From NCBI GenBank assembly GCA_014904985.1, contig MU129012.1, positions 144,738 to 208,737 on the forward strand: a DNA stretch of 64,000 bases, given 5' to 3'. A model generated the notes under the pieces. It was not told the origin of the DNA. It made no database searches and was given only the letters and a program-made list of their open reading frames with translations. This DNA comes from Hydnum rufescens UP504. Lineage: Eukaryota; Basidiomycota; Agaricomycetes; Cantharellales; Hydnaceae. This document shows, piece after piece, positions 5,974 through 57,111 of this stretch; positions within the stretch are counted from its first letter, which is position 1; every line of letters starts with the position of its first letter. Made by a program: the position numbers and the translations under genes.

Positions 5974-6304
5974 CTTCCTTGTTTTGTGCAGGCTATCATT
6001 CGGCAGGTTTTCATTTGCCCTGGCTTTGGTTGGGCTGGTGCAGATGTTCATTCAAATCATGACCTAGAATATTAAAATGTGTTAGTTAAAAATTCAAAAA
6101 GGCACAAAAGGAGCAGCTATTGCTGCTCCTTTTGCACAGCTGTATCTATTGGGGGGGGAACTCACGTTAAACAGTGCCACACACCTGCTGCAGCGGGTGT
6201 GTGGTTCCTGGGGGTACCCATTGGGCGGTCCGTTGTTTGTTTGGTTTGGCTCTTGCCATTTGGGCCCTCATTGTGTGGTGGGTTTTTGTCTGGGGCCTTA
6301 GACC

Positions 6305-7029: not shown

Positions 7030-7059
7030 CTTAGACCATAATATAAAATAATAAAAGCT

Positions 7060-8056
7060 ATGTCAGTATAAGAATTTGAAGTGGTGCAAAAAGAGTAGCT
7101 TATGCTACTCTTTTTGCACTATTTGTACCTACTGAGACAAAACTCACCTTATGACCACACACCTGCAGCAGCGGGTGTGTGGTCATGTGTTTGCCTTTCT
7201 GGGCCATTGCTGGTGTGGTGTGTGTAGCTGTGCAATTCAATGCCGGCAATTGCCAGTACTCAAAAAGTGCCTAAGTGCTGGTGCTACAAACATAATACAT
7301 ATTAGTAGCAAGTATCTAGACATGGAATACATGCTATATAATAAGTATTTATCCAAAAATGCCAAGAAGAAGATGATAATAAGTCAGAGCTCACTGAGAC
7401 ATGATATGCCTAATTGCAAAGTGGATTGGGCCACTTCTATAGGTCAGAATTAGCCAAAATTGAAATATATTAATGGTATATATGCACCCTACATGGGTGA
7501 CTGATTATATTGGACGATCTGTCCATTTTTCGATTTTTCACACCCTCAATTCCCTAATTAGGGAATTGAGGGTGTGAAAAATCGAAAAATGGACAGATCG
7601 TCCAATATACTCAGTCGCCCATGTAGGGTGCATATATACCATTAATATATTTCAATTTTGGCTAATTCTGACCTATAGAAGTGGCCCAATCCACTTTGCA
7701 ATTAGGCATATCATGTCTCAGTGAGCTCTGACTTATTATCATCTTCTTCTTGGCATTTTTGGATAAATACTTATTATATAGCATGTATTCCATGTCTAGA
7801 TACTTGCTACTAATATGTATTATGTTTGTAGCACCAGCACTTGGGCGCTTTCTGAGTACCAGCAATTGCTGGCATTGAGTTTGCATCTTCCTCTGCATCT
7901 CTGTTACCACAACAGGCAACTGCCTGGAAAGGCAACCACATGACCACACGCCTGCTGCTGCAGGTGTGTGGTCACAAGGTGAGTGTTTTTATTAATAGAT
8001 ACAAAAGTGAAAAAAGAGCAGCAAAAGCTGCTCTTTTTGTGCTGCTTTGAATTTTT
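7060..8056. repeat. Central long palindrome of element E2
   Basis: Inverted repeat centred at 7,557/7,558 (CCCTAATTAGGG). The arms are essentially identical over roughly 270 bp on each side and remain similar outward to the first P and H palindromes. Array orientation switches here from minus (left) to plus (right). An open stretch reads identically into both arms because of the symmetry and is not treated as a gene. Confidence 0.9.
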
Positions 8057-9270
8057 AACTAATGTGTTGTTTATTATACTAGATTGAGGCCTGCTCCAAG
8101 GCCCATGAAAGCCCACGAAATGACAAGGGCCCAAATGGCAATGCAACATGCAGAAACGTGCCAAACAGCAACACAACACACAGCAACACATCAAACAAGG
8201 GTGCAATGCACCAAACAGCAACACACCAAATGAGGATGCAACACATGGCAACATGATATGCAGAAACCCACCAAACAAGGACATGACCATGCCAAATGAG
8301 CCACACACCCACCACAGCAGGTGTGTGGCACTATGTAAGGTGAGTCCCCACCCCCCCAGTAGCTACAGCTGCACAAAAAGAGCAGCAAAAGCTGCTCTTT
8401 TTGTGCTGCTTTGGAATATTTCACTAACGTGTGTTTACTTATTTTAGATTGAGGCCTCGTCTAATGCATGACGAGAGCCCAAACAGCAATGCAATGCACA
8501 GAAACATGGCATGGCAATGTGACATACAGCAACATGACACAGCAACATGACACATGGCAGCGCGCCATGGCAATGCAACACACGACAGCATGACATGGCA
8601 ACGTGCCAAACAAGGGCACAACTGCATCAAATAATGCCCCAGGAATCACACACCCACCATGGCGGGTGTGTGGTTCTATATCAGGTGAGTCCCTTCCCCC
8701 CCCCACTCCAGTAGCTTCAGCCACACAAAAAGAGCAGCAAAAGCTGCTCTTTTTGCATGGTGCTTATTTCTTAACTAATTTAAACATAGTATTTTGTAGG
8801 TTTCAACTTCTCTCATGAATGAATACCGACAAAGAACCTGCTGTAATCCCACTTATCGACACCCAAACAATGGGGGACCCATATGAACTGCTGTGTGTAC
8901 AAGCCCACATACACAGCCCCAGTACCCTACACCTGCCGCAGCGGGTGTGGGCACAAGGTATGTCTCATGTTTTGTTTTATTTCTTAGTCTTGTGGTGCAA
9001 AAGAGCAGCATAAGCTGCTCTTTTTGCACTGCATTCATGTTCTACTAATATTTTATTCCTTATTTATCTAGATCCTTGACCAGAATCCCCATGAGCCCCC
9101 AAGCAGAACCAGCTGAACAAGATGTGGCGAACAATAACTATGAACAAACCCCCACAAATGAAGACTGACCACTCGAGGGAGTGCCCAAAAGGAACTGGCC
9201 CCTGACTGCACTCGCTGTGGAGGGTATGGTGGGTATATGCAGGCGCATGACCTGCATAAACCATCCCCCC
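7940..9270 (+). repeat. Hairpin-intron array 3, four units, plus orientation
   Basis: P near 7,945, 8,301, 8,649 and 8,927. H near 8,012, 8,371, 8,723 and 8,995. Acceptor-like TAG ends fall near 8,083, 8,449, 8,801 and 9,071. Exon-like parts are A/C-rich. The last, degenerate P (near 9,210) is followed by the AT-rich tail and the outer inverted repeat. Confidence 0.9.
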
Positions 9271-9645
9271 CTGTGGTGGCAGACCCCAGGGGGGATAATA
9301 TGTATATAATTATAGTAGTAATAATAATAATAAATAAATATATAATCTAGCACAGCCATGGATTGGCTGAAATGAATCGGAATGACCATATTTTGGCTGT
9401 ATTTTGGCCATACTGTCTGGGGACCTATTAGGTACCATTTTCTGCCCTGAAAATGGTACCTAATTAGGTCCCCAATTTAACTGACCAGCCTGCATTTTGG
9501 CCAATTCTGGGCCAGAAGGTTGACCAAAGTGCAAATCATAAAATGGCCATTTTGGCTGGAATAGTGATGGGACCTACTTAGGTACCATTATCTGCCCCAG
9601 AAGTGGTACCTAACTAGGTAGGCTTAGATGACTGACCAAGGTGGG

Positions 9646-12375: not shown

Positions 12376-13007
12376 CACCTGAGGCAATCACATTAAGGTA
12401 CCTAGTTAGGTAGGATATTCTATATAGGTACATCTTATCTAAGTAGGTCTAATCTATATGAGTTTGCTGGGGTTGCTCTCGGTTCTGTGCTTGAAAAATC
12501 AGGCTTGCTAGGGCATATTTTTTGGCACTGGGTCCCCCTCAAAAATATCGGGGGTTCGGGGCAGTAGCCCCCAAGAAGCTCTGGGGATGGAGGTCTGGGT
12601 AAACCTGAAAATGGCCTATGGAAGCCCCACCATGGCTTGGGTAAGCCTGTGTTAGCTTCTGAGAGGGCTGGGTGAGCTTTTGGTCCAGAATCAAAGCTTT
12701 GGGCTCACCCTGGTCTTACTTCGGTCTCACTTTCCCCTTCACAAGGTCACCCATCCCTACTCTTGTCTCTCCCAACCCTTCCTGGGCAACCCCACTACTA
12801 TACTAGCTAGACAATGCCTTACCATAGGATCCTGTCTTCTACTGTTGATCTTGATAATTGTTTCACTATCCATACCATGCGCTGTTGTGTTTTTTGTCTT
12901 TCTCTTTCCCCAAGGGAGTGGGAAGCAGAACGGGACTCACATAAATGAATGTCCTTGTGCTTCCAACTTCACTACCATGAGCTCACCACCTTCAAGGTAA
13001 TATTAAC
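12376..13007. repeat. Left terminal inverted repeat of the KDZ element
   Basis: Inverted match to 30,460-30,994. Shared segments include GGTACCTAGTTAGGTAGGAT, the AAAAATAT..GGGGGTT..GGGGC stretch, GCCCCACCATGGCTT, CACTACTA.ACTAGCTAGA and, at the inner border, TTCAAGGTAATATTAAC. The left copy is about 100 bp longer owing to internal insertions. No gene is recognisable inside. Confidence 0.85.
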
Positions 13008-13052
13008 CCATTCGAACTCCATTTGGGTGGATGCAAATCATAATGTCAAACA

Positions 13053-13998
13053 TTGTTTTCTTCCCCATCATCTGATTTGATTATGGAGGTTTGGGTACAG
13101 AAGTACAATGTCACCTTTAGGGACAATGAGCCATTGTGCCATTGTTCAGTTGCTGGTGAGCCCCATCTAGTTAATTTTGCACTCTCACATCTTAAAATCC
13201 CATATCCCTCAAACAGTGAGACTTGTTTCAATCCCAGGGGGTGAAAATAAGGGAAAGCACTTCTATGTGTGTGGCAGACAGAATGAGTGTGACTTTCTAT
13301 GTGCATTAACACCATTATTTCCTCTTCTCCACTTTTACAATTCTTTCTTTCAGACTGGGTTTGTCTCACGATGATGTGGCAGTTGATGTGGTTGACAATT
13401 GGATGTCTTGCATCTATTAGGCTGAGCAACCACCCCAGAATCATCATCGTTTGATGGTACATCACACCGCCAGTCTGCAAGCAAGAGGGGTAGCTGGGGA
13501 GTAGGTGAAGATGATGAGTTCAGTACAAGTCCAAGAGCCTCCACGCCCAGTATGTACTGATTTCCATCCTTTGTATTTGGGCTGACCTAGGGTTGTAACC
13601 TCTCAGATTCTCCCTCAAAGTGCAGGCTCAAACCCTCAGCATCCACTATGCCAGCATCTCCAAAGGCTACACCCTCAAATCCATCTTCACCCATCAAGTT
13701 GGGAGCCAGTTTAGCTTCATCATCAGTTCCCACTGCGATGGACACTGGCATAGGTCCATTAGGGGGTGGAGTGTCTGAGGTCGTGGGGCTCTAATTTTCT
13801 TGTTTCAATTGCCAATTCTCATGATTTCTTTTCATAGGTTACTATGCTCCTCAAACAAATGAAGCTTGAACTCGCCAGTACTCAATTAGAGATTGCTGCC
13901 CTTCGATGTGAAGTTACTGGACTAGGTAGGGATGTGTCTGGGGTGTGGGGCGATGTTGGAGAGCTCCATAACCTCCTTACCGATGATGGCATTGAGTA
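13053..13998 (+). pseudogene. GRF-type zinc-finger protein, frameshifted
   Basis: Frame 1 from 13,053 gives PLCHC near its middle, and the segment ends at CFNPRG (13,244). The next frame continues as KGKHFYVCGRQNECDFL (about 13,249-13,299). Together this is the pattern of a GRF zinc finger (C-x-C ... NPGR-x-FYVC ... CDF), broken by a one-base frameshift near 13,240. A separate open segment at 13,843-13,998 encodes a Leu/Glu-rich stretch (MKLELASTQLEIAALRCEV) that could be a C-terminal coiled coil. GRF fingers bind nucleic acid. The gene lies between the left inverted repeat and the transposase and was probably cargo or an accessory factor of the transposon. The family call is moderate; the linkage of the two segments is inferred. 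Confidence 0.55.
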
Positions 13999-14254
13999 AC
14001 TAGTTGGCAACATGTCTGCATTGTGTTCCACCTCGTGCTTCATGAGGCAAAACCCAGTGTTGCTGTGCCTCTCTTGGAGCGTTCTCATTCTCTCATATGC
14101 CTCATGCTTTCCTCTTCTTTCTTTTGTGTCATCTTCTGTGTTGCCCAGTATTTGTTCTTCATTTTCAACTGCTCATGCTGCAATTGATGGCCATACTGTG
14201 ATCAGTGCACATGGAGAACCGGCGAAAGTGACAGCTGTTCCCGAATGCCACAGT

Positions 14255-14700
14255 TTAGTGTTCCAGGATAGGTGTGAGTTCAAACTCTTTCTGACATGTT
14301 AACAAGTAGCCATCCAGAATGAGTGTGAGGCTGTTGGCATCGTATTGGAAATTCAAATTCACTGGAATGGGAATCCCATACACAGCATCCACATGCACAA
14401 CATGGTCAAGATACTGTAGTCCACATTTCGAACCCACCCACCTCTACAACACTAGAACCTCCTCTACATACCCTGTCACATCCTTTCCACTGTAAGGAGA
14501 CTTCCCAATGTCCCCAGCATCCACAAGTTCAATGCGATGGAAACCATATCATACATATATCTTCCTCCTTGACCTCAACACTACCACCCTCAGCAAGTGG
14601 CTCCTCAAATCCACATACTTCCCACCACCAGGATCTTCAGGTGGCTGCGGCCTCATTGCATTCATGAAGCAAGGTGTATCATGAGCTGTGAACCCAGCCA
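14255..14700 (-). pseudogene. Unidentified minus-strand coding relic
   Basis: The minus strand reads as protein-like sequence with two in-frame stops. It includes FMNAMRPQPPEDPGGG, KYVDLRSHLL, DAGDIGKSPYSGKDVTGYV and YGIPIPVNLNFQYDAN, and ends LTPILEH near 14,255. I do not recognise the family. It lies between two plus-strand pseudogenes in the KDZ element and may be another transposon-carried gene. An alternative is a chance open frame on the antisense strand. Confidence 0.3.
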
Positions 14701-14979
14701 CCTCCATTTGCCTCAAATATTTCCCCCTGTCATTCTACTCGCCCTTCAGTGAAGCAGCGAGGGCCAGGAGGATTACAAGAGAAAGTGGACCTTCTTGGAA
14801 ATGCAGCATTACATATTCCCTCTGATCCATCAGTCCCTGACTTCATCTGCAATGCATTCCAGTCACTGCAGGCTGACTCTCTGCAATCTTCCTCTCCTTC
14901 AGGGAACCCACTGTCACTGCATTGGCCTCACCCTAGCCAAAAATACTCCTGACACTCCAGTGGCATTGATATCAACATG

Positions 14980-17900
14980 GAACTTGAACAACTTGGCTTC
15001 AGTACCTTGTTCTTGGAGACTGTTGGAATTCCTGCCGCATTTTCAGATCTTCCCATCCCTCCAAAAATCACTCCAGCCAATAACATCCACAAACCCCCTA
15101 TTATACCAAAAAAACCAAAGTTACATGAACAACATGGATGACTATGATGAGATGTTAATTTTGGTGAGACATGGCTGTATAGGTCAATTGATGCTTCCAC
15201 CACATGTTCATCTCCCCTGGCAGCCTTGTCTGCAGGCCCGGAGCACAATGAATGTTTGCTTGGTTTTGGGAATGGAGGTCCTGCATGCCTTGATTCTGCA
15301 TTATCACAACTGGTCAATTCTACTTCTTGGAGTCCTATCACAACATTGAATAATGAAGGGCTGAACCAAATATTCACTGATGAAGTCCCTATATCTACCA
15401 AACAATCCAAGTCATGCAACTTGACATCACATGCAACCTTGGCATAGCAGTGGAATGACCTCATTCCTCATCTTATCGTTCCATTTTCAAGATGCATTGC
15501 TGCAACAAATTGGGATTCTTGGATGCCATTCAATGCCCATTTGCCAGCATGTGATGGTGATAAGGGATGCCACACAAGGACCTTGAAGATTACTTGTGTT
15601 CATCTCAAAAGTATGTGCCCATGGATCATTTCCAAATATGAGTGTTTATCTTCAGTCATTTCTATGTAGGTATTCACAAAATCACTTTATCTGTCTGCAA
15701 CTGCTGCCCAGCAGCTCTCCTTCTTCTCGAACTTGGCCTTTTCCCCTCAGCCCTGTACATCCTATGCTCACAGTTGACCTGGATCTTCTCGACTTTACAT
15801 TGACAGTCTTCAAAGTAGAGCAACCCAATATCCATGGGTGGGTGAGTTCCTTGCAGAGATTTTTATGGAAACAGGGACATGTTTTGGAAGGCGATGTACA
15901 AACTCATCCTGATATTCCAAACTATACTGCCTTTTTTTCATGTACCCTCCCTAATAGGATACGCTTCAACAGCATTTCAGGAAAGCATTGCAATATTACA
16001 ACATCTTAGTCAGTTCAATGGAAGAAGTTGTGAATAATGCAGTCATACTGGCGAGGAAGCAGAAGCAGGAGAGTACATCTCTCCCCAATCAGGTTCTGTC
16101 AGATCATGTGACAAGTGCTGTGCCAGCAGTCTCTGGTCAATTGCCCTTGGCAGCTCCGTTGTCTTTAACTTACTTGCAATCCTCCTCATTCAAATCATCA
16201 TCTTTGCCTTCACTCAAACCATCATCTTTGCATCACTCATCGCCTGTCCCTTTGTTGTCTCCACCCCAGCTGCCTTCACTGACACCACCACCCGAAGGAC
16301 GATTGCCTGTTTTGTCACTGCCCAGAGGATAACTACCCATATCGTCACTGCCTGAAGGATGATCATCCCAATTACAAACTTCATTGCCTTCATTAGATGA
16401 TCTGGCAGAAAATCCCTATACTCATTTGTATCACACAGACCTGGAAGACCACAAGCCAACTGTAAACAATACTCGCCCTAGTATATACCTCCAGTATCAC
16501 TGCCCAGCCTGCTTTGGAGGAGTCAAATACCCAAAGGATGGCCGGTACGTACTTTTGTGCAACACTTTATGTTGTTAAGTCTTCAATATTGACTCTACCA
16601 ACTCCAGGCCATGCATATTTGTTGCCAGTGACGGATGCACTACGCAATGGCAACAGCAAGATAGATATGACAGGCAAGACTACCCACTTGGATTGCCCAT
16701 TCCACAAGACTTATTTGTACCTACATCAGAAACTTCTGCGATGAGTGAATACTACACTGAAACCAAGGCAGCTGCAAAGTTTGCATCCGACAAGCGCCCC
16801 CCAACATTCGTGAAAAGGGAATGGTGGTGATTAACGATGTCATTGATCAATGTGAAGACTCCTATCTTGCTGCAAAGGACTACCACATCAGGGTCTCCAA
16901 GGAACATGTGGATAAAGGACTCATTGTACTGGTTTGCTGACATGACCACATTATTTGGTTTATCAATATGGGTCCTAATGGCAAAAAACAGTATTTCATG
17001 CTCACAATGATACAAAAGCTCCTTGGGGAGCTCCCAGAGTCATTCATGGTAGGGTTCTTTTATGACATTATATGTGTGATGCATCATGAAATGGAACATG
17101 TATGTAAATTTATTTTCTGACAGCTGTTAGGTCACTGATGACCCAGGGTAGTGGCAGCTTTTGCCACAATGCCTTCCACACCTCAAATTTGCCACCCCTG
17201 TGTTCCACTCATATGGCCATCAATGGCCCTGTCAACTATCTTACCACCCATACAAAAACCCTGAATTTGGTTGCACAGATGGTGAGGGATGTGAGAGGGA
17301 GTGGAACCTACTCAATGGGATCATTCCTACATGTTGTATTTTGGGCATATGTTTATTCCTTCACTTCTGCATTGGGTTGCACTAAAATTCTTACAGTTCC
17401 ATCATCGTTTATTTGTGATCAATAACAAGCAAGCACACATTGACAAACAAAACCATCTCAATCTTGGAAGCCATTTGAAATGCCACTTTGACAATACTTC
17501 GGCCAAACTAGAAGATGCAGAATGCGCTCTGGAGAAGCTAATGATCCCGGTCACTGACATCAAGGCCATGTGGGCCAAGCAACTGTCAACTCAACAGGCT
17601 GAGCCACCTCATTAGTTTATCTCTGCAATTACTGACAACAATTTGTTAGGCCCAGAAAAGGATGCTGGCGTGAAGGCAATTGAAGCTGTACTCAATATCT
17701 TGAAGACTCAAACCTCTCTTCAGCAGCAAATCATGACTACTTCAAATCGACAGGCAGCTGTTGCTCTACATGACCCTTCATCTCCACTTTGCAATGAATT
17801 CCTCAATCAGCTTGACCAACTGCAGACATCCCTAGAAAAGGTTGAATTGCAGCTTGTGAAAAAGGAGAGTGATCTGCTTCTTCATGGCAAGATGATGAGG

Positions 17901-18890
17901 GGCGATTTAGATAAGATTAAATCTTCTCAGTGGTATGATGCTTTGATTCAAGCTTGAGCACACTACCACCAGCTGGTATCAGCCTTGGTGGGCCATAAAT
18001 TCACTATTACTCAGTGTATTGAGGATTACCGAAGCCATATATTAGGTGAGTTTGAGTGCTAAAGGTGTAACCTAATCTGACACCAACATTTTCCCCAAGA
18101 TCATAAAGCACATATTCATGAGGCAAAAGTGGACAAAAAATGACAACCTGCTATCCTGCATTGCCTTGAACAACTTAACAAAGAAATCCAATGTATGCTG
18201 GCCAACTGGGATGATGCCCCCCAGGGCACAATCCCACCCAAAACACTTGACCGGAAGGGGCTGTTCTCTCTAGATGTTGATGGTGTGATTTGGAAAGGTT
18301 TGTGCATGCTGGAAGCTGGACTTGGCGATGATTGTGTGCCACCAAGATGGTTGGCAGACAAAAATATGCGAGTGGCCATAATTGCATATCTGGACTTAGA
18401 GGGTTGTCAAGTCAAACTTGATATAATCAAACAGGAAGTGACAAACATACATGTCTGGTATGCAGAGGAATACAATGCCATTCAGGCTGCAATTCATGAG
18501 GCTGGTATGGACGTGATCCCACATTCATGTTTTTGATTCTCACCATCCTCCACAGAAACCAATTCCACTCTTCGATTCCATCTTTCACACAAACTTGCTG
18601 CACTTGAGGAAGTTGGAGTGACATGGGACTATTCGCTGCATCAACTACTGTACCCTGCAGAGCTACAATCCATCATACAGTTTGCATCGAGGACCATGCC
18701 TGCTGACACCATTTCTGTCCATATGCTCTCTACCCTAGCACATGAAGATGGGCCCAATTCTGATAGTGAGGATTGCATGGAGGAGTGGAATGCTGCAATC
18801 CCCATCTCTGAGGAATTGAGGAAAATAGACAAGGACAAGGAATGTAGTAGAAGTGAAGGATTCCCTGATGATGCCTCCAAATTCAAATAA
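14980..18890 (+). pseudogene. KDZ-superfamily transposase, multiply frameshifted
   Basis: Conserved blocks of KDZ transposases appear in order on the plus strand. QWNDLIPHLIVPF is near 15,449 and TRTLKITCVHL near 15,570. TVDLDLLDFTLTVF (near 15,768) belongs to the N-terminal region. The cysteine-cluster motif CPACFGG is at 16,501. C*HD (16,935-16,946) corresponds to the family's CRHD. FYDI near 17,060 is next, then SYGHQWPCQLSYHP (17,209) and DGEGCEREW (about 17,278). The C-terminal LDVDGVIWKG (about 18,279) is followed by DLEGCQVKL. Catalytic-core aspartates in YD and DGEG are retained, but frames change repeatedly (for example near 15,980, 17,300 and 17,615) and there are in-frame stops. 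The enzyme would be a DDE/RNase H-fold recombinase acting on the element's inverted repeats. This copy is non-functional. Confidence 0.85.
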
Positions 18891-18949
18891 AGCACAGTGC
18901 ATACTTCCAAACCCCAAAAAAATGTGCCCAATATCTATTTCTGACAATT

Positions 18950-19790
18950 ATTGGGTTTATACATGCACATGAACCTGTATTATAATCCAGCCTGTGGTAG
19001 ATGACAACATGACATGGACTGTGCACAGTCACATCAGTAGTCATTTGTGAATTCAGTCACTTGAGTAGTAGTCACTCTCGAATAGTCATTCAAATAGTCA
19101 CTCGAATACAGCAGTTGTGTGAAGTCTAAAATTTTTCTTGTGATGTACACCAATTCAAGCTAGCCAAGCGAAGGGGCCTCTGAGGACATGTAATGCTACC
19201 AGTGCCATGGCCACACCTACAATTGTACCGTGACATTGTGACATATGGTAGAAAGACACAGTGCAACTACAGTGGTCACTCGAATAGTCATGCAAGTGGT
19301 CGTCACTTGAGTAGTCACATGAGCAGTTGTCTCTTGAATAGACCACATATAATCATGTTCCTTCATTAAATGTTCAGATTATACCTTCCCAACAGATGTC
19401 TAGTTTCCTTAATAGGGGGGGATCTCACTGCAAAGAGTTTGTGAGAATTGATACAAGAATCTAGTGTGAATCGACTGAGAAGTATCAAGAAATTCTCCCT
19501 TGGTTCTTGTATTAATCCTGATGAGGTCCTCAGTAGGGATGATTCTTGCTCTGGGTCTTGGAACAAATGAATGCAGCTTAGAATTTGGTAGATAAGGTAT
19601 GTACAGTGAAACTGTAAAAATGAGGGGGTAAAGATGGAGAACCGGACATGCAAATGGGGACAAAGCCATCCAATCAATGTACAGCAGCAAATATTGGGGA
19701 GACATGGGATGCATTATTCCTGAGCAGGGTAATCAGAAAGCAAGGGTTTCCAGGACAAGGTGAAACTTTGAGAGGACCATGTCAAGGATC
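18950..19790. other. Gene-free stretch with short imperfect repeats
   Basis: Between the transposase relic and the nonapeptide-repeat ORF. 19,030-19,340 contains many imperfect copies of AGTCA(C/T)TCGAATAGTCA-like motifs. No reading frame looks coding. Confidence 0.5.
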
Positions 19791-19803
19791 ATGGTCATAA
19801 AAG

Positions 19804-21432
19804 TCATGCTGACGAGTTATGGGAGTCATAATGAGAAGAGTCGTGAGAGTTGTGATAAGGAGGGTCATGAGATGTACAAGGCTCCTGAGAGTTGCAATAA
19901 GGCTGACAAGTGTCAGGATATGGAGGCTCATGAGCATCACAATATGGAGGCTCACGAGAGTGGCAATGGGGAGGTGCATGAGAGTCACAATGAGGAGGCT
20001 CACAAGGCATGCGATATGGAGGCTCACAAGAGTTGTGATGAGGAGGTGCATGAGAGTCACAATATGGAGCCTCATGAGAGTCATGATATGGAGCCTCACA
20101 AGAGTTGCAATATGGGGGCTCATGAGAGTTGCGATACGGGAGCTCACAAGTGTCACAATACGGGGGAGCATGAGCATCACAATACAGGGGCTCACAAGCA
20201 TCCCCATACAAGGGCTCATGAGTGTCACGATATGTGGGCTCATGTGTGTCATGATATGCAGGCTCATGCATGTTGCAATACAGAGGTTCATGAGAGTCAC
20301 AATATGGGGGGTGATGAGAGTCATGATAGGGAAGTTTGTGGGTGTCACAATAGGGAGGCTCATGGGTGTCACAATAGGGAGGCTCATGAGAGACACAATT
20401 GGGAGGCTCACGAAAGTCGTGATATGGGGGCTCACCAGAGTCGCAATAAGGCTCAGAGCCATGATGAGGAGGCTCATGGGAGCCATGACAAGGAGGCTCA
20501 TGGGAGCCATGATGAGGAGGCTCATGGGAGCCATGACGAGGAGGCTCCTGGGAGCCGTGATGAGGAGGCTCATGGGAGCTGTGATGAGGAGGTTCACAGG
20601 AGCTGTGACGAGGAGGCTCACGGGTATCATGAAGATGAGGCTTGCAAGGGTCACGAGAAGAAGGCCCATGAGAGCCACGGTGCGACTGTTCTTGATCATA
20701 GGGGATTGATCCCCCAACCAAGACTGGGTCTTCATCGTTATAATTCTGTGGATCTCCATCATCATGACTTGGTTCAGTCCAGCCATCTTCAGGTGGTGGA
20801 TCTTGATTGTCAATGCCTTTTCCCTTTGAGGATGAAGCATGCGAGTTCTGAGACTGATACAGGCCAGAATGAGACAAAGGCAGTTTTGGATTTGAGTGGG
20901 AGGCTGTAGGAGATTGCAAGCAGTTGCATGAATGCTTAGACTGAGATGGGGGATGCAAGGATAACCCAGATATTTTTGGCTTGGTGTGAGGTTTTGTGCC
21001 CAGGTAGTGGGGGTCACAGGACTGCTGTCTTGCAGGAGGTGTTGGCAGATGCTGCATACAAATGTCTTGGGGATGAGCCCTGTCAAATTGGTTCAAGTCT
21101 TTCTCTACACCTTCAACGATTGAAGAAAGATTATGAATGGAGGATTGCACTGTTTGCAACTGACCAGGTCTTGATGACCTATTGGTTGATGCTGTTGCTG
21201 TTGTCACTGAATCTGATGAAGACAAATGAACACTCCCTGTGCTGGCTCCAGCATTAACAAGCCATCCAATTGGTGCCCGACTTGACACCATAGAGGATGT
21301 AAGACCGGCCACACTGTGTGAGGTTTCCGTCTCATCTTCCATATCTCCCTGTTCTGGCTGCATATGGCAAGACGATGAGGATGAAGGTGGCAGGGGAGCA
21401 GGGTGTGAGGTTGGGAAGTTGTTTTGGGCCAT
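19804..21432 (-). CDS. Nonapeptide-repeat protein carried by the KDZ element
   Basis: A 542-codon open frame on the minus strand starts MAQNNFPTSHPAPLPPSS. Residues 1-250 are Ser/Pro/His-rich and low complexity. From about residue 270 to the end there are some 30 copies of a nine-residue repeat of the form (S/T)HEPPYC(D/N)(S/T), ending DSHNSSA. The sequence suggests a secreted, wall-associated or disordered repeat protein, or a structural part of the transposon accessory gene upstream at 21.6-22.1 kb. Because the unit is 27 bp and stop-free, several other frames on both strands are also open. The minus frame is preferred because it extends into non-repetitive sequence and is collinear with the accessory gene. 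No known domain was recognised. Confidence 0.45.
   Translation of the reverse strand: MAQNNFPTSHPAPLPPSSSSSCHMQPEQGDMEDETETSHSVAGLTSSMVSSRAPIGWLVNAGASTGSVHLSSSDSVTTATASTNRSSRPGQLQTVQSSIHNLSSIVEGVEKDLNQFDRAHPQDICMQHLPTPPARQQSCDPHYLGTKPHTKPKISGLSLHPPSQSKHSCNCLQSPTASHSNPKLPLSHSGLYQSQNSHASSSKGKGIDNQDPPPEDGWTEPSHDDGDPQNYNDEDPVLVGGSIPYDQEQSHRGSHGPSSRDPCKPHLHDTREPPRHSSCEPPHHSSHEPPHHGSQEPPRHGSHEPPHHGSHEPPCHGSHEPPHHGSEPYCDSGEPPYHDFREPPNCVSHEPPYCDTHEPPYCDTHKLPYHDSHHPPYCDSHEPLYCNMHEPAYHDTHEPTYRDTHEPLYGDACEPLYCDAHAPPYCDTCELPYRNSHEPPYCNSCEAPYHDSHEAPYCDSHAPPHHNSCEPPYRMPCEPPHCDSHAPPHCHSREPPYCDAHEPPYPDTCQPYCNSQEPCTSHDPPYHNSHDSSHYDSHNSSA
19810..20680. repeat. 27-bp minisatellite, about 30 copies
   Basis: Plus-strand unit close to GAGGCTCATGAGAGTCACAATATG plus three bases, with transitions between copies. 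The 27-bp period preserves frame in both directions. Later copies (20,455-20,640) retain GAGGAGGCTCATGGGAGC-type variants. Confidence 0.9.
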
Positions 21433-21639
21433 GGCCCCCCTTGGTCATGGTCAAGGCTGCTGCTCTTGACATTTTTCATCTTCATCAGGGCTTTGGGATT
21501 GAGAGCGTGGGCATGCATTAAAAACATGATGAGAGTGAGAATGCAAGCGAGAATAATTGCATGAGCAGAAACGAGAGTGTGAATGCACATTGGCACATTG
21601 ACAGGAGTGGGACCAAGAGCATGAGTGAGTATTGGCACG

Positions 21640-22057
21640 TTGTCAGGAGCAGGACCAATGGCATGAATGAGAGCATGCTCTAGCAGGCTGATGAGGTCCC
21701 AAGTATGGAAGTGATTGCAAGGGAGAAACATCGTCATCTGAAGCAGCCGAGTTGTCAGACTGGACTTTACTCATCTGGTCTTGTTTGCATGCCCCACATT
21801 TCTTCGGTTCCCAATGTTTGAGATCACATACACAAAGGAGGTCATCTCCTTCCATGTTTTTAATCAGTGGGTAATCTGCGAAATCAGAATTCTGCCCAGC
21901 TAGTAATGCATTCCACAGATCTTAGCAGATATACAGCTTACAATAATACAAAACACTCACATGTATCCCATTTTTGAACCTGTATATGGCATGCTGGATT
22001 AAAGGTGAAATTATTGATGAATGGCAACAAATCATCCCTCAAATACCTCAACTTGTC
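21640..22057 (-). pseudogene. KDZ-element accessory gene, downstream fragment
   Basis: The minus strand from 22,057 reads LRYLRDDLLPFINNF, then NPACHIQVQKWDT. It is joined across a 61-nt GT-AG intron (21,900-21,960) to SGQNSDFADYPLIKNM and a Cys-containing stretch (LLCVCDLKHWEPKKCGACK). The frame is in phase across the intron, so this is real coding sequence. The gene's upstream part lies beyond the nested element, from 26,909 on. Family unknown; the Cys pairs hint at a zinc-binding motif. Confidence 0.55.
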
Positions 22058-22499
22058 CAAACCAGTCAGCCATAATTGTATATCTAGTTAGGCCCTTTTG
22101 CCTTGCTTTTATTCAATCTAAGAGCGGGTTTTTAGGTGGGGGCCCCTGGGGCCCACTGGGTGATTTCATGGCATGAGACAAGGGGCCCCATGGAGCCCCT
22201 AGGGGCCCCTGGGGGCCCCTCACCTTAGACTGCTAGTGGGACTTAGAGATTCTCAGACTTGCAGGACAGCGGGCCATATGGGCTTATTGGGGATAATGTG
22301 TTCCACTATATGGTACATACCTGGTCAGCAGGAGGTTGAGGTTGAGGTTGAGGTTGAGATTGAGCACAGGGAGAGGGAGGAGCACTTGGTGGGGGGGCAG
22401 GTCACCAGATTCATTCAGCAGTCATTGCATTATTGACTTGTTTATTTATTTATTTAGAAATTCTATTAACAAAAAAAAATACCACACCCTTAGTGGGCA

Positions 22500-24955
22500 T
22501 CTGTAGGAATCAGAAAAAGAAACTACTTAGTAGCACCACACACCCACAGGCAGGTGTGTGGTACTGTCCATAGAAATCAAAAAAAAGAACTACTTGGCGG
22601 GGGTGTGTACTGGTCCGCAGAAATTAAAATTAAAATAAAATAAAAAAGAACTATTTAGTAGCACACCCGCCATAGCGGGTGTGGTACCGGGGGCATGGCT
22701 TGGCAGTTCACCTTTGGGCAGGTCATCTCGTTCATGGGTTTTGTTCCGGGATTTCGTTTGGGGCATGGGTTCCTGTTCTCATGTATTTGTTCGGCGGCAT
22801 CGCGGGTCTTCATCGAGGGTTCAAAAGAATACCTATGATAATAAGGAATAAGTTAGTAAAAAAAGAAAAACCCCGCAAAAGGAGCAGCACATGCTGCTCC
22901 TTTTGCACGGTCATACTTATATACAGGGAATACTAACCTTGAAAATTATCACACCCACCGAAGTGGGTGTGGGGTTCATCCGGGACTTCAGTGGCCTCAT
23001 TGTGTGCAGGTTTCGTTTATATGTTGCGGGAAATCGAGGTTGGGGAGTATGGGTGGCTGCGTGGTCCCGTGTTTTGCCCTGGGCCTGATCTGTGCATTCG
23101 TCGGGTCGGATATCACGCAGTAAATGTACCTAGAATAATGATATGTTAGTAAAGAAAAAAAAACGAAGGCAACGCCAAAAGAGCAGCCAGGGCTGCTCTT
23201 TTGGCATCGTGGTACAGCACATAATCAAAAAACAACTCACCTACTAGTACCACACACCCACTTCGGCGGGTGTATGGTACGTGATTTCATCGATCGTCAT
23301 TTTGGGGGGCGGGCACTAGTGGCTTGGGTGGCTGCGCATTGAATGTCGCACTGGGGGCTCATCCGTGTCTTTGTCGGCTTGTCAGGTGGGTTTTCATGGA
23401 GGGAATGTACCTAGAAGAACGAATGATAATACATTAGTAAAACAAAAAAGAAAGCAGAGGTGCCAAAAGAGCAGCTTCTGCTGCTCCTTTGGCACTGGTG
23501 GGATTAGACATACCTGATGTCACCACACACCCGCCGAAGCGGGTGTGTGGCATATCTGATTTGCCGTCGTATTATAGTTCTCAAGGCTCGGGGGTTGGGG
23601 TCTGATTGGCTGCGCGCTCCATATTTCACCGCAGGCCTTCTCTGGCCATTCATCAGATGGGGTTTCGTGGAGAGAGAGAGGAGCTAGAGTAAGGAGTACG
23701 TTAGTAAAAAAAAAGAATTCAAGCAATGCCAAAAGAGCAGCTGTTGCTGCTCTTTTGGCGTTGTTGTACACCCCACAATAAAAAAGACTCACCTAATATT
23801 GCCACACACCCGCTGAAGCGGGTGTGTGGCGCCGTATTTGTTTTGTTGTTGTAGAAGGTGTGGATATTCAAGAGTCAGGGGTCTGGGTGGCTGCACACTG
23901 CCATGTTTCGCCCTGGGCCTGATCTGTGCATTGGTCGGGTCGGGTATTGCACAGTGGAGGTACCTAGAATAACAATACATTAGTAAACAAAAAAAAAATC
24001 CAAGACAACGCCAAAAGAGCAGCCAGGGCTGCTCTTTTGGCATCGTGGTACACCACGTAGTGAGAAAACTCACATGATATTGCCACACACCCACCGAAGC
24101 GGGTGTGTGGCACTGTATTTGAGGCATCGTCGTGTATTTTGCAGATAGTCGAGGGTGTTCGGGTCTTGGGTGGCTGCACGCTCCCGTATTTCACGGTGGG
24201 CATTGTCTGTGCATTGTTTGGGTCAGGTTTCGCAGAGGGAGAAAGCCTAGAACAATGAATACATTAGTTAAAATAAAATAACAGAAGCAACGCCAAAAGA
24301 GCAGCCAGGGCTGCTCTTTTGGCATCGTGGTACACCCCGTAACGAAAAAAAAACATACCTGATATTGCCACACACCCGCCAAAGCAGGTGTGTGGCATCG
24401 TATTTGTTTCGTCCTCGTATACATTGCGGAAAATCAAGGGTTGGGGGGTATGGGTGGCTGCGTGGTCCCGTGTCTTGTCCTGGACCCGGCCTGTGCATCG
24501 ATTGGGCCGGATATCGTGCAGTGAATGTACCTAGGATAAGAATATGTTAGTAAAGGAAAAAAAAGCAAAGGCAATGCCAAAAAAGCAGCCGGGGCTGCTC
24601 TTTTGGCGTTGTTGTACACCCCATAATGAAGAAAACACACCTAATATTGCCACACACCCACTTTGGCGGGTGTGTGGCACTGTATTTGTTTCGTTGTATA
24701 TTGCGGATATACGACCGTTGGGGTCTTGAGTGGCTGCGCCCGCCACCATATTTCGCCCAGGGTCCTGTCGGTGCATTCTTCGGGCGGGGTTTCACGGAGT
24801 GAGAAGGGACCTAGAATAATGCAGATGTTAGTAAAAAATAATTCAAGCAATGCCAAAAGAGCAGCTAGTGCTGCTCTTTTGGCGTCGCAGTACACCCCAT
24901 AAAAAGAAAACTCACCTAATAGTGCCACACACCTGCTGGGGCGGGTGTGTGGCAC
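22500..24955 (-). repeat. Hairpin-intron array 7, eight H units, minus orientation
   Basis: H hairpins near 22,876, 23,173, 23,461, 23,728, 24,009, 24,291, 24,574 and 24,850, mostly GCCAAAAGAGCAGC-loop-GCTGCTCTTTTGGC. P palindromes near 22,535, 22,664, 22,949, 23,250, 23,522, 23,802, 24,082, 24,368, 24,650 and 24,925, mostly CCACACACCCGC..GCGGGTGTGTGG. The period is about 280 bp. On the minus strand donors GTGAGT/GTATGT and acceptors CTAAC...CTAG frame each H. Exons share a core around CGAAATATGG..GTGCGCAGCCAC. This is the most regular and CpG-rich array. Confidence 0.95.
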
Positions 24956-24995
24956 TGTTGTGCTTGCTTTGGGCTTGATGTTGAGTAAGATCCTA

Positions 24996-25624
24996 CTCAA
25001 CGCCAGGACTTTCCGGGCTCGAAAGAGTGCCCAATTAGGGGCAGTACCAACTCATATGGATAGATAATAAATACCTAGATAAAAAATAGATAATAAATAC
25101 TAAATATCTGTCTAAAACAGGTGGAGGAATAAATGATAGTCTGTTGGATTGCACTAAGGCACCATGTGCAAAGAGGAATTGGGCGACTTCCATGCATTAT
25201 AACTGGCCAAAATTTGAGTATCTTGGTGGGATGTATATATATTTTATGTTGATGAAACGAATTGGACGATCACGCCAATTTTCAGTTTCTCGTGCCTTCA
25301 ATTTCCTATTCAGGAAATTGAAGGCACGAGAAACTGAAAATTGGCGTGATCGTCCAATTCGTTTCATCAACATAAAATATATATACATCCCACCAAGATA
25401 CTCAAATTTTGGCCAGTTATAATGCATGGAAGTCGCCCAATTCCTCTTTGCACATGGTGCCTTAGTGCAATCCAACAGACTATCATTTATTCCTCCACCT
25501 GTTTTAGACAGATATTTAGTATTTATTATCTATTTTTTATCTAGGTATTTATTATCTATCCATATGAGTTGGTACTGCCCCTAATTGGGCGCTCTTTTGA
25601 GCCCAGAAAGTCCTGGCGTTGAGT
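24996..25624. repeat. Central long palindrome of element E4
   Basis: Two arms of about 310 bp with almost no mismatches, separated by the 4-bp spacer ATTC at 25,308-25,311. Both arms contain a CCAATTC..TTTGCACATGG segment homologous to the E2 and E3 palindromes. The array flips strand here. Confidence 0.95.
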
Positions 25625-25689
25625 TGTTTGTTTTGATGATTACTAAGCTACCTCGTTCGTATATAGGACAACCAACAGGATCCCACCGA

Positions 25690-26670
25690 ACTAGAACAGG
25701 ACCACACACCCGCCATGGCAGGTGCGTGGTCCTATAGGTGAGTTCCCTCCTACTATATACAGCCATGCAAAAAGGGCAGCAAAAGCTGCCCTTTTTGCAC
25801 TCCTTTAACATTTTAACTAACATACATATTATTTCCATTCTAGGTTTAAGGTTGTCACGAATAACAATGATACAAAACAAAATCAACACAGGCCGAAATC
25901 CATCCAAGACCCCACATACATGCGCAGCCCCCAAACCCACGCGACGACAGATAAAACACGGCACCACACACCTGCTGCGGCAGGTGTGTGGTGCTATCTG
26001 GTGAGTTCCATCCCCCAATAGATACAGCCGCGCAAGAAGGGCAGCTGTTGCTGCCCTTTTGCACTCTTTGACACTTGAAACTAACATACTTTACGCGCCA
26101 AAGGGCAATGTGTCAAACGGCAATGCATCAAACGAGCACACGACGGACGAGAACACACCCAGCAAGTGGCCCTGGGAACCACACCCGCCACGGCAGGTGT
26201 GCCCTATATACGGTGAGCCCCCGCCCCCACGACCCCGCATATCAAAACCCGGCTGACAATACACAGGGTATATAAAGTACCACACACCCGCCGCTGCAGG
26301 TGTGTGGTACTACAAGGTGAGTTTTTTTTTAGTAATCCTGGGGTGCAAGAAGAGCAGCATAAGCTGCTCTTCTTGCAATGCTTTATTGTCTAACTAATGT
26401 ATTGTTTTTTTCCCTAGGTCTTGGACTCGAATCCGAATGAACCCCTGACCCCAAACCCGCCAAACAAACACCCGGTGAATGAAGATCCGGTGAGCTGAAC
26501 CCCGCGACCCACCCGATGACCCGAACCTGCCGAGCTGAACCCACGACCCCAAACCCGCCAAACCAAGCCAAACCCCCCACATGAAGGTAAGGTTTTTTTT
26601 TCTTTGGCTACGATCACACAAGAAGAGCAGCCTCTGGCTGTTCTTCTTGGGCACATGGGTGAGCCCCACT
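25690..26670 (+). repeat. Hairpin-intron array 8, four H units, plus orientation
   Basis: P near 25,702, 25,962, 26,178 and 26,280. H near 25,765 (AGGGCAGC/GCTGCCCT), 26,031, 26,343 (AAGAAGAGCAGC/GCTGCTCTTCTT) and 26,619. The differing stems remain self-complementary. Donors (GTGAGT) and acceptors (TCTAG at 25,843; CCTAG at 26,418) are clear. Confidence 0.92.
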
Positions 26671-26908
26671 GGGCGAGCCTATCATTGTATATAATAATAA
26701 CATTAGTAATAATGATAATAATAATAAATAAATAATCCATGGCTAGGGGCCCCAGGGGCCCCTGGGCTGCTTGAGGGGCTGCTTGGGGGCCCCTTGATTG
26801 TATTGCAGGGGCCCCCGGGGGCCCCCTGGTGTAAACATCTAGTTAGATATGATAAATGCAATGCTCATCATATCTAATATGATACGGAAAAGTGGCTGAC
26901 CAGGCTGG

Positions 26909-29525
26909 ACTTGTCAGGAAGAAGAACAGGAAGTTTGTTGGGCCAGCCAACCAATGTAATTTTCTTTGCATGTAGTTTAAGGGCTAACTGTTTCCCCAGA
27001 AAGGCCCAGCCAATACCCTTCTTGGTCTTCTTGGTGCCAATACCATGGGGCTCTATAGATATTGCAGCAGTAAAAGCACAACCAAGCTGATAAAGTTGAG
27101 TCCATTATGTACCTAGTATGGGTTTCATGAAAGACACCAGAGCAGCATTGGCTGCATCTCAATTTGTTGATGCCTCATGCTTCTTGTCTTCAATCTCACA
27201 TGCTGTTTCATCTGTCTGAGAGGGTCTATTTGCCTTGCTGGATTGACGATATCTTAGCATCCAGTTGAATGAGCAGAGAAAATGGAAGGCTCCCACCTGG
27301 CAGTTTGTACAACATCAAAAAGTGAATTGAGGATGTCCTTCTTGAATGGGTCCAGGGCTTGTGTAAGTTCAGGCAATCCAGTGATGGTACAATTTTGTGA
27401 TGTTGGGTGTCCATCTCCAAGGTCCTCATTAATCCCAAATGTGACCAGGGCTATGCTTGAGAATGTGTGCAAATGCAAGGCCTCCAGATCATGTCAACAA
27501 CAATGTCAGAATGTTTGAATCATGGGCTAGCTTACCTTCTTTTAACCATTTCGGCATTCCTGGCCATGACTGCTCCACATCGGCCTTCCTCAGCCTGCTC
27601 AAAGTCGCAAGCACCTGTCTTTTCATGTAGAGCCTTGAGGAGGGTGTCCTTTTTGGCAGCAAATTCATCCACATTTAAGCCTTCAAATAATTTTGTGTAT
27701 TTGGCCCTCATTCGTACAGTCCAATCCTTCAAGGGTTCTGTAAAATTGTGGAGTCACACCAGTAAACAAATTGAATGAACCATAAATTATTTGTTCCATA
27801 CCATCTGGATGTCACTTCTCCTTCTTGGAATGCAAGAAAGCATTCCATATGTTTTCAGTTTGGCCAGCGGAGACCAGTGGAACCGCACCACCTTCTGAAA
27901 GAATCCTGTAAGGCTTTACAGCCCACCTGTTTGCCAGAAAGTCCACTGCCTTCATATATTGGCCCCATAGTGCCCAACACATTTTCTTTTGGTCTAGTGA
28001 GAGTGGACCATCATTTAAACCTTCGCTGTCTTTGTCATGGCTGATGGTGTCATCTTGTAATTGATTGCCATTGTAAACATCTTGAGCCTCAAGGTTTAGG
28101 AGTTCCATTTCCATGTTGGGGATGTTGATACTTCCACCTCAGGAGGGTTTGGTATTCTGCTTCTTCATCCTTTGAGTACCCTTTGGTTTAGAGTTCTTTC
28201 TATGCCCAGCATCATCGCTTTCTTGGAAGCTGACATTGGTGTCCTCATCATCACCATCTTTGGAGTCACATGCCTCGAACTCTGATTCACCATTGTTGAC
28301 ATCCCCATCACTCCAATCATCCTCTTCCACAAGAGCCACCTGTGTGAGCTTGCCAAGGAAATTCACTTTGGACACCATACAAGGTTCCTTGACCTGGTTT
28401 TTCAATTGATGTCACTGAAGTGGGTTGACCATCTGCATGCATATATCCATGGGGGATCATGGAATGCTTTACCAAAGGGGCTGCAGGTTCATTTAGAGTG
28501 GGTGGGAGTGGGAGTGTAGGGTCAGGTAAAGTGACACCTGCTTGGGGAACCGGAATTGCTGCTGGTGCTGGCATCAAACTAGTCATATCGACAGATGGGT
28601 GTGGAATCTATTGAAAAAGAAGCCCTGATTCAGATTTATTTCCATTGCAGAAGGAATCAAGGAGACATACGTCTTTCTTGTGTCACTCATATGTTAGTTT
28701 AGCCATGTTCATAACATCAATTAGACATTTGTCAATTAGTCCTGGATTGTCGGTTATGGGACAGTGGATAAAGGCAGATTGGATAATATCAGGAATCATG
28801 GCTACAGCACCACCAGTCCCCCAGAAGACTGACCTGTCCATCAGCTGGGCTTCTCTGATTGACGACAACTGGGCAAGTCACCTGACACTCTCAAAAGCAT
28901 TGGGGGAGAATTTTTCAACTGCAGTGTTAGCAACATGCCGCTCCCCAAAGGCTGCCTTCAAAAAATCTTTGAAAGCTGGCCCAAACTGGATATCATCTAT
29001 GAGAAAATCGCCCAAACTATCAACACCAAAGGATTGCCACCAGTCTTTATATGATGTGAAAACAGTGCTCCCAAGGTAATCATGCTGAGACACAATAGAA
29101 CCGACATCAGGGAGATGGTTGAGAAGAATTTGAAGGTAGCACAAGCACACTGCACACCACTGATCACTATGAGGGCCTCCACCATCATAGGTTTCATATG
29201 AGATGGAGAGCTGATCACTGTTTTCATGGATGATGTTGGAGATGGGGATCTTGATGTCTTGGGGATCCAAATCCATGGGGGAGTACTGATTGCCTTGAAG
29301 TCAGAAAGTATTATGACAGAGTAGGTGCTACAGCCTGCAATATTAAGGCAGAGAATTGAAACGAAAGAATAGAGGACCCACAAATTCTGCAGTGTCATCA
29401 GGAAGCAGTGGAGATTGGGCAAGAGGCACCTCTGGGTCAACCTTGATTGGACCGCCAGAAGGCAAGGCACCTTCTTGCAAGGGCATGTTGTCATTGTTGA
29501 TAGGCAATTCAACATCAGGAGTCAC
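26909..29525 (-). pseudogene. KDZ-element accessory gene, upstream exons
   Basis: A series of minus-strand coding segments. MTPDVELPINNDNMP opens near 29,525. DLDPQDIKIPISNI and DQWCAVCLCYLQILL lie at 29,276-28,878. SIREAQLMDRSVFWGTGGAV is near 28,865, a Pro-rich segment near 28,586 and an acidic segment (DDWSDGDVNNGES) near 28,330. KKMCWALWGQYMKAVDF lies near 27,980, DWTVRMRAKYTKLFEGLNV near 27,725, and GTKKTKKGIGWAFLGK near 27,010. The segments are separated by stops or intron-like gaps. Where the gene meets the nested element at 26,909 its frame continues at 22,057. I do not recognise the protein. Its place opposite the transposase suggests a second transposon protein. Some exons may be intact, but the nested insertion breaks the gene. 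Confidence 0.5.
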
Positions 29526-29559
29526 CCAGTTTCCACATTCACATTCGGTGGTGTGTCCG

Positions 29560-29830
29560 CATCAGTCCTCACATCCACATTTGTCCGCATGTCTGTGTTC
29601 ATCTGCATGTCCATGCTTGTCCACACATCTGCACTTGTTCACATGTCTGCGCTCATCCACACATCTGTGTTTGTCCACTCATTCATGTTCATCCTCACTA
29701 CTGTGTTCATCCTCATGTCCACATTCATCCTCACATCCGCATTCATCCTCACGTCCACATTCATCCTCACATCTGCATTCATCCTCATGTTCATGTCAGT
29801 GCACACCAACATGCACATGTCCATGCCATT
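29560..29830. repeat. Short tandem repeat near the start of the accessory gene
   Basis: Imperfect 12- to 18-bp repeats of the TCATCCTCACATC(C/T)(A/G)CAT type. On the minus strand they would encode Met/Asn/Val/Asp-rich repeats. The stretch from 29,830 to 30,460 has an A-tract at 29,988-30,006 and no confident exon. Confidence 0.7.
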
Positions 29831-30459
29831 GAGGTTGAATGGGTCGTACTCAAGTGACAGATGACATCCCTCTACTCTTTGAACCCTTGCCTCAGCCCCA
29901 GGTGGCCTTGGCCTCAATGTACTTGCTACTTTCGAGAGCCTTCTGCATTTTCCGAATTTTCCACAGCATATGAGTGTGCTACAAATGAAAAAAAAAAAAA
30001 AAAAAAGCTCAATTGGTGGCCCTTGACAATGTGAAGTACATACTTCAGGTGCCATTTCATTAGAGGCCTCTGAGAAACTTCCCTCTGCACCTGGGTGTGG
30101 TGTGCCCTGCAGGGGGAGACAAATTAGAATTCTGGGTAACATGGACTGAGAGTGCTTGTACCATGTCTCTCAAGCTTCTCTTGTCACCTGCTGATGGCCC
30201 AGGATTGCCAGACATAATGGCAGCAGATTGCTGAATGATGGCAGTGGATTTTCAAATAACTGCCCAAGGGTTGGCTATCTCTGACACTGGACTCCACCAG
30301 TGGCATAGGCATGAGGCCACAAGTATTAAGGCCTTGATGCTATGTGACATGAAAGACAGAAGAAAGGACAAGGGAGATCCTAATTGAGAGACAGTGTGAA
30401 TCACAGGCACACCTGAGAATCAACCAGTTTAGCCAAATATATTAGAGATTATTGTGAGT

Positions 30460-30994
30460 TAATATTACCTTGAAGAAGAATGGGATGAGCTTGTTGGCTC
30501 ATAGGAGTCCAAAAGTACGAAGACATTGGGTTTATCAAGATCAGTGGCAGGAATAGATAGGATCCTATGGCAAGGTGTTGTCTAGCTAGTGTAGTAGTGG
30601 GGTTGCCCACAAGGGATGGGTGACCTTGGGAAGGCGAAAGTGAGACAAAGTGAGACCAGGGCAAGCCTGAAGCTTTGATTCCAGACCAAAAGCTCACCCA
30701 GCCCTCTCAGAAGCTAACGCGGGCTTACCCAAGCCATGGTGGGGCTTCCATAGGCCATTTTTGGGTTTACCCAGACCTCCATCCCCAGAGCTTCTTGGGG
30801 GCTACCACCCCCAAACCCCCAATATTTTTGAGGGGGACCCAGTGCCAAAAAATATGCCCTAGCAAGCCTGATTTTTCAAGCACAGAACCGAGAGCAACCC
30901 CAGCAAACTCATATAGATTAGACCTACTTAGATAAGATGTACCTATATAGAATATCCTACCTAACTAGGTACCTTAATGTGATTGCCTCAGGTG
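30460..30994. repeat. Right terminal inverted repeat of the KDZ element
   Basis: Inverted counterpart of 12,376-13,007. It ends CTCAGGTG and is followed by the duplication CCTTTATG. Confidence 0.85.
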
Positions 30995-57110: not shown

Positions 57111-57111
57111 C

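Follow-up and report, generated by a model that had tools for sequence, protein, structure and literature searches.

The window analysed here, a 64,000-nucleotide stretch of the genome of the hedgehog mushroom Hydnum rufescens UP504 (order Cantharellales), lies at one end of contig C104 in an assembly of 63.2 Mb (C and L followed by a number denote a contig of the assembly and a locus read in the genome, respectively). Between positions 22,058 and 26,907 it contains an element composed of two mirror-image arrays placed about a near-perfect 630-bp palindrome (Table 1). The repeated unit of the arrays comprises a palindrome (P), a splice-donor-like GTRWGT, a hairpin (H), and the branch point and acceptor motifs CTAAC and TAG. 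This order and placement, reported for both strands in a preliminary description of the region, was confirmed. The segment 22,500–26,670 carries 12 H hairpins, belonging to eight complete units on the minus strand (22,833–24,915), three complete units on the plus strand (25,738–26,417) and an incomplete one near position 26,627. When a single rule was applied to the whole window, 41 H hairpins were identified, of which 36 are accompanied by a donor, a branch point and an acceptor; the modules described earlier are therefore present, in smaller number than the approximately 50 first counted. The splice junction then given as an example (59,329/59,441) was recovered as a predicted intron (59,330–59,440) between exons of 168 and 176 nt. 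Overall, the earlier interpretation is partly supported; it had missed the mobile element and the arrangement of its halves around a palindrome.

Table 1. Features of the array-bearing element and of other elements in the window (window positions; a dot marks features given without strand).
Position	Strand	Feature	Remarks
22050..22057	.	Left target-site duplication AACTTGTC	Agrees with right copy at 7/8 positions
22058..22072	+	Left terminal inverted repeat CAAACCAGTCAGCCA	Adjoining subterminal DNA rich in GGGGCCCC
22833..22958	-	Predicted intron with H hairpin	P not recognised before donor
23130..23240	-	Predicted intron with H hairpin	P just upstream of donor
23411..23513	-	Predicted intron with H hairpin	P just upstream of donor
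23684..23792	-	Predicted intron with H hairpin	RNA fold z -5.67
23964..24090	-	Predicted intron with H hairpin	Donor called by script at GT inside P; GTGAG further in
24247..24358	-	Predicted intron with H hairpin	RNA fold z -5.20
24531..24640	-	Predicted intron with H hairpin	
24811..24915	-	Predicted intron with H hairpin	First of left array
24995..25624	.	Central palindrome	Arms of 313 nt, 99% complementary; TATATA-like stretch per arm; candidate head-to-head promoter
25738..25843	+	Predicted intron with H hairpin	First of right array; RNA fold z -6.54
26001..26103	+	Predicted intron with H hairpin	Acceptor AAG
26317..26417	+	Predicted intron with H hairpin	RNA fold z -4.84
26893..26907	-	Right terminal inverted repeat CAGCCTGGTCAGCCA	Minus-strand reading
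26908..26915	.	Right target-site duplication GACTTGTC	
3582..9643	.	Second array-bearing element	CACCTTGGTCAGTCA at either end; matching duplication absent
12376..30994	.	Larger 18.6-kb element	Long inverted ends; exact 8-bp duplication CCTTTATG; frame-broken KDZ transposase fragments
55063..60151	.	Third array-bearing element	Unrelated 18-bp ends TAGGCTATTGCATGGGGT

Similarity between the element and homologous loci begins and ends sharply at 22,058 and approximately 26,907, and the flanks differ from locus to locus. The 15-bp terminal inverted repeats (TIRs) are imperfect (11 of 15 positions alike), and the end pattern CARMCYRGTCAGCCA occurs 377 times in the genome (control, 0). Ten elements with this end type have both ends in view. 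Three of them are flanked by exact 8-bp duplications (L035, CACTGAAT; L046, GGTTACCA; and L041, ATGAAAAC, the last provided that one end is inverted), and two, the window copy and L037, by duplications matching at 7/8 positions; no matching duplication was found at the remaining five (3,582–9,643 of the window, L047, L051, L052 and L053). When the flanks of the window insertion were joined with a single copy of the duplication and used as a query against the genome, 22 matches were obtained, two of which are the window's own halves. The best were on C532 (93% over query positions 1–298), on C280 and at two places on C53 (86–87% over 2–300), with weaker ones below. Since the joined flanks run uninterrupted in this paralogous DNA, it represents the empty site of the insertion. 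The element is thus mobile, and its inverted ends at a sharp edge of homology, its target duplication and its empty site are those of a cut-and-paste transposon of the TIR class. Palindromic repeats rich in GGGGCCCC lie inside both ends (22,121–22,225 and 26,740–26,830), as well as in L046, and are possible transposase-binding DNA.

None of the six open reading frames (ORFs) of at least 110 aa within 22,058–26,907 gave a Pfam transposase match at E values up to 0.1. Without an encoded transposase of the KDZ (Kyakuja-Dileera-Zisupton) type, the element can be at most a non-autonomous KDZ relative. KDZ transposase matches are numerous in the genome (at least 154; 150 of 584 candidates were scored). 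Four of them have an exact end CAGCCTGGTCAGCCA 1.5–1.9 kb downstream; these pairs were picked by eye among the KDZ matches listed and the listed part of the 377 ends (contigs up to C55). In two homologous KDZ copies (94% identity over 2.8 kb) the homology halts exactly at such an end, and the terminal 18 nt of the array element are identical to those of KDZ-bearing elements. Target duplications of 8 bp are attributed to Zisupton and to KDZ1 in the consulted parts of PMC12730594 and PMC12810828, respectively. Exact duplications of this length flank L035, L041, L046 and the 18.6-kb element at 12,376–30,994, whose KDZ fragments were detected with E values of 2.3e-16 and 2e-6. The array element is nested within the latter, which is itself situated inside an intron predicted for yet another array. 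Because the array element shares its ends with KDZ elements and has 8-bp duplications, its mobilization in trans by KDZ enzymes is likely.

The motifs of the arrays are far more abundant in the 63-Mb genome than expected by chance. Exact H palindromes occur at 3,872 sites and exact P palindromes at 3,642, compared with one for the reversed H pattern and none for the P control. The right arm of P followed after 3–16 nt by GGTRWG was found at 3,023 sites (control, 21). Scaling up from the sample described below, which was picked for arrays, gives an estimate of about 5,900 H hairpins genome-wide.

The presence of intron signals was examined in 35 non-overlapping stretches totalling 254,878 bases, most of them picked for their arrays, with shuffled flanks as controls. 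This sample contains 321 H hairpins, all distinct when their flanks are included. In 264 of the 321, the donor, the branch point and the acceptor form a complete frame on the same strand, compared with about 5% for shuffled flanks; of the others, 40 have the donor only, 14 the branch point and acceptor only, and three neither, and no hairpin scores high on both strands. As the rule could take a GT inside P, the donor search was redone on hairpins with a branch point and acceptor. Among 277 usable hairpins, 201 have both P and a donor, 48 have P without a donor and 28 lack a P arm, so that a donor lies 3–16 nt behind P in 201 of the 249 P-bearing units (shuffled, 12%). These donors are mostly GGTGAGT, GGTAAGT or GGTATGT, and the commonest spacing is 9 nt. 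The spliced long noncoding transcript that had been proposed is therefore supported as far as sequence signals go, and the arrays are probably transcribed, spliced and functional. A comparison with host introns was weak, being limited to two candidates of 46 and 57 nt identified from their pattern within the gene family at 44–49 kb. This family (window 44,175–48,774) is a tandem family of proteins that appear membrane-bound, with paralogues elsewhere in the Hydnum genome and relatives in JGI and ENA contigs. The pieces tried had no Pfam match, and positions 45,661–46,317 correspond to H. rufescens UP504 protein BS47DRAFT_52281 (99.5–100% over the aligned part).

The predicted introns are oriented with respect to the palindromic centre. 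For 34 centres with arms of at least 100 nt, the nearest introns, no more than 1.2 kb away, point outward in 59 of 60 cases; the single exception is in L044, where two palindromes adjoin. A search with one arm of the central palindrome yielded at least 78 matches, mostly head-to-head pairs (40 of 92 candidates were scored). The centre is conserved between loci, with a TATATA-like stretch in each arm, and may thus constitute a pair of head-to-head promoters.

Substitutions in the stems were analysed by parsimony on a tree of 259 units built from the sequence outside the H stem; the hairpin finder gives G-U and A-C pairs an equal score. In H, changes from Watson-Crick pairs to G-U exceed those to A-C, both in pairs 6–13 (22:8, p = 0.016) and in pairs 14–17 (70:46, p = 0.03). 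In P (180 units) the corresponding ratios are 30:43 and 11:8, and the contrast between H and P is significant (Fisher p = 0.007). An excess of G-U in H would be expected from selection on sense-strand RNA or from a strand-biased mutation process; outside H, A>G and T>C changes occur at approximately equal rates (.0268 and.0253). In addition, 15 events in pairs 6–13 exchange one Watson-Crick pair for another. All five window introns that were folded show the same hairpin in the predicted RNA structure, with z scores of -4.84 to -7.69 relative to shuffles.

P gave no such indication, and a reading of it as an RNA hairpin is not supported. Its 44 Watson-Crick swaps are partly or wholly register slips of a CA repeat and were left out as evidence of compensation. 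P is probably a site acting at the DNA level, e.g. a protein-binding palindrome, located oftenest 9 nt before the donor. The earlier suggestion of protein-binding palindromes may accordingly hold for P, which lacks the RNA-type substitution bias, and is unlikely to be the sole account of H. The commonest changes outside H were C to T (1,018) and G to A (837), and the CpG pairs of P vary most, a pattern such as methylation-driven decay would give.

The position of H within the predicted introns was compared with that of the zipper stems of yeast introns, for which minimum distances of 10 nt to the 5′ splice site and 20 nt to the branch point have been given, with a total of 42–85 nt (PMC12350175). 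The total linker is 42–85 nt in 147 of 201 introns. All three limits are observed by 182 of the 201 when only the inner 13 bp are counted, and by 105 with full stems, the lower figure arising because the stem then comes near the branch point. Removal of the stem-loop shortens the median distance from donor to branch point from 86 to 46 nt. By analogy, H may act as a zipper. The yeast stems lie in introns of host genes, unlike the Hydnum stem design, which recurs thousands-fold in mobile elements.

Taken together, the array is best explained as the interior of a transposase-less DNA transposon, in which rows of P and H units run outward from a palindrome that is likely a promoter, and in which H would fold in the RNA and aid splicing; we assign this explanation a probability of roughly 0.62. 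The element would be mobilized in trans by KDZ transposases acting on the same ends, and its palindromic centre would drive divergent transcripts. The H hairpin of each predicted intron would then bring the donor close to the branch point, leading to removal of the intron by splicing, and the arrays would grow by tandem duplication of exon-intron units. The least certain step is why a transposon should keep such introns. Well-spliced introns may allow the transcript to stay expressed, to be exported, or to escape RNA silencing coupled to splicing; the idea that introns of transposons relate to splicing-coupled silencing reportedly stems from work on Cryptococcus.

Several observations weigh against this explanation. 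Half of the ten elements with both ends in view have no matching target duplication, and the 255-kb sample was selected for its arrays. Decayed copies are common, given the P-bearing units without a donor (48/249) and the hairpins without a P arm (28/277). The pairwise identity of about 0.8 at the donor, H arms, branch point and acceptor (189 units), compared with 0.40 in the H loop and 0.31–0.38 in exons (unaligned comparison), contains some circularity, since several of the motif letters are set by the rule itself. The G-U bias in H is moderate (p = 0.016 in pairs 6–13) and derives from parsimony over duplicated units, and 27 events in the same pairs break the pairing. The bias of the outer pairs is less secure, since a first run with 153 units gave 13:3 for the inner pairs and an unbiased 28:30 for pairs 14–17. 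One unit and two centres compared with the KDZ elements read showed no convincing similarity: a single 31-nt match was seen, at the far end of L059, in a place that also borders the end of a different element. The left end of a KDZ element on C19 was looked for and not found. Finally, annotated gene model P0012, on the contig of the window, uses six of the predicted acceptors and places those six donors inside P, unlike the predicted donors.

Among the alternatives, the one that survives best, and which we still regard as unlikely, is that the arrays are DNA repeats only, i.e. fold-back or satellite DNA within a transposon, whose H and P are kept by DNA pairing or protein binding, with the splice-like motifs as passengers. 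Both H and P are indeed palindromes, P lacks the RNA-type bias, and the arms of the 34 central palindromes are 89–99% alike within a locus, as gene conversion predicts. Fold-back-like elements with tandem repeats in long inverted ends are also known, e.g. Galileo (as described in the consulted part of PMC3573991). Against this reading stand the complete intron frames at 264 of 321 hairpins, the donors placed behind P in 201 of 249 units, and an excess of G-U over A-C in H that is missing from P and has no matching mutation bias.

It is more doubtful still that the H hairpins are precursors of small RNAs freed from spliced introns, a role listed in the preliminary description to which we now give a low probability. 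The hairpins of the five folded introns are stable and the design exists in thousands of copies. However, the median stem is 18 bp and the loop has four nucleotides in 141 of 146 cases, and an 18-bp stem with a 4-nt loop is short for Dicer. Moreover, the stem is much alike between copies while the loops vary (26 types among the 146), and an Rfam search of the window gave no match at the gathering score.

That the arrays are protein-coding genes of repeated exons is very improbable. Thirty annotated Hydnum proteins (P0012–P0041) match the in silico spliced translation at E values up to 0.01, and stop codons are less frequent in the exons (.029) than in shuffles (.037). The matches all come from one genome, however, and the antisense strand has even fewer stops (.020). 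The exons have lengths with remainders 0, 1 and 2 modulo 3 in 31, 17 and 22 of 70 cases, homologous exon pairs of unequal length differ by a multiple of three in only 29 of 145, and exon mismatches are distributed over the three positions as 661/551/540. No reading frame is therefore kept, coding exons were rejected on the grounds of length, indels and substitutions by position, and the earlier argument against one repeated protein holds. As to P0012, the staggered GTs inside P offer a choice of frame for its donors, and a Pfam search of this protein gave no match. The exons thus look noncoding. A look for intronless retrocopies found 20 P-P gaps without an intervening H, none of them near the length of a lone exon (about 140 nt).

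The amplification of introner-like elements inserting new introns into genes, also proposed earlier, is the least credible alternative: many similar introns in one genome and a DNA transposon with target duplication recall part of the families in the consulted portion of PMC9860276, but in the loci read (host genes lay outside the survey) the introns stand in tandem with their own exons inside 3–6 kb elements with separate ends.

Arrays of this kind are carried by further elements. The second array-bearing element of the window, at 3,582–9,643, has two separate palindromes with centres near 6,661 and 7,557. The short elements L053 (386–3,191) and L052 (471–1,674) are bounded at either side by the same end and contain large central palindromes (arms of at least 600 nt and of 242 nt, respectively), with no target duplication in either. 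The third element, at 55,063–60,151, has a different end type, which it shares with a relative on C2 (18-bp ends TAGGCTATTGCAYRGGGT; 78 sites, control 0). The C2 relative is flanked by an exact 8-bp duplication, CCTCACCC; the window copy has flanking GTTACCA, which is ambiguous within a minisatellite. This G-rich minisatellite with GTTACCA occupies 54,771–55,062 and 60,152–60,570, and the third element seems to have been inserted into it. The 19 units of the second type share 73–81% identity with their nearest counterparts of the first type, and the centres match in parts; similar arrays therefore ride two kinds of element. With regard to a partner for TAGGCTATTGCA-type ends, L045 has an exact 8-bp duplication, and a match to the hAT dimerisation domain lies between two such ends on C68. 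The C68 flanks show no duplication, and a hAT partner for this end type was not established. It is tentatively conceivable, at odds well below even, that the divergent array of hairpin introns is a noncoding cassette dependent on splicing and passed between unrelated transposon families (ends CAGCCTGGTCAGCCA and TAGGCTATTGCA). Such a passenger would exploit the spliceosome of its host to its own advantage, and would have multiplied to thousands of units in a single mushroom genome.

Among known systems, the Hydnum element agrees with the KDZ transposons of fungi in its terminal 18 nt, as found on KDZ-bearing elements of the Hydnum genome, and in the length of its target duplication, the latter as given in the consulted parts of PMC12730594 and PMC12810828. 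It differs from them in the lack of a Pfam transposase match in its six ORFs and in an interior of predicted noncoding exon-intron arrays about a palindrome. Galileo of Drosophila is likewise a DNA transposon whose long inverted ends can hold tandem repeats, but the consulted part of PMC3573991 mentions no splice signals or hairpin introns, and the Hydnum repeats are exon-intron-like and run outward from a palindrome. Introners, according to the part of PMC9860276 consulted, are amplified introns tied to DNA transposition, some with TIRs and target-site duplications; they are introns placed within genes, unlike the several predicted introns that the Hydnum element holds in tandem with their own exons. 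The genome paper PMC7550596, in the part consulted, mentions H. rufescens in the context of enzyme losses. A literature search covering titles and abstract openings, with subscription journals mostly outside its reach, showed no description of such arrays among the entries listed. We rate the carrier transposon as known in kind and the array cargo as new.

DNA transposons are usually described through their transposase and ends. Here, the interior itself looks kept for splicing, with noncoding exons in tandem, intron signals in a set order, several thousand repetitions of a single hairpin design and signs of selection in RNA. A practical consequence is that the 30 array-matching Hydnum annotations are probably mis-annotations and not real proteins. 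If the transcripts are spliced, the genome would contain thousands of natural variants of a single intron design, a library in which the effect on splicing of a stem between donor and branch point could be tested directly; it would also become testable whether transposons evolve good introns to dodge silencing coupled to splicing. If this explanation is true, a genomic parasite would, by means of hairpin introns, build splicing into its own design.

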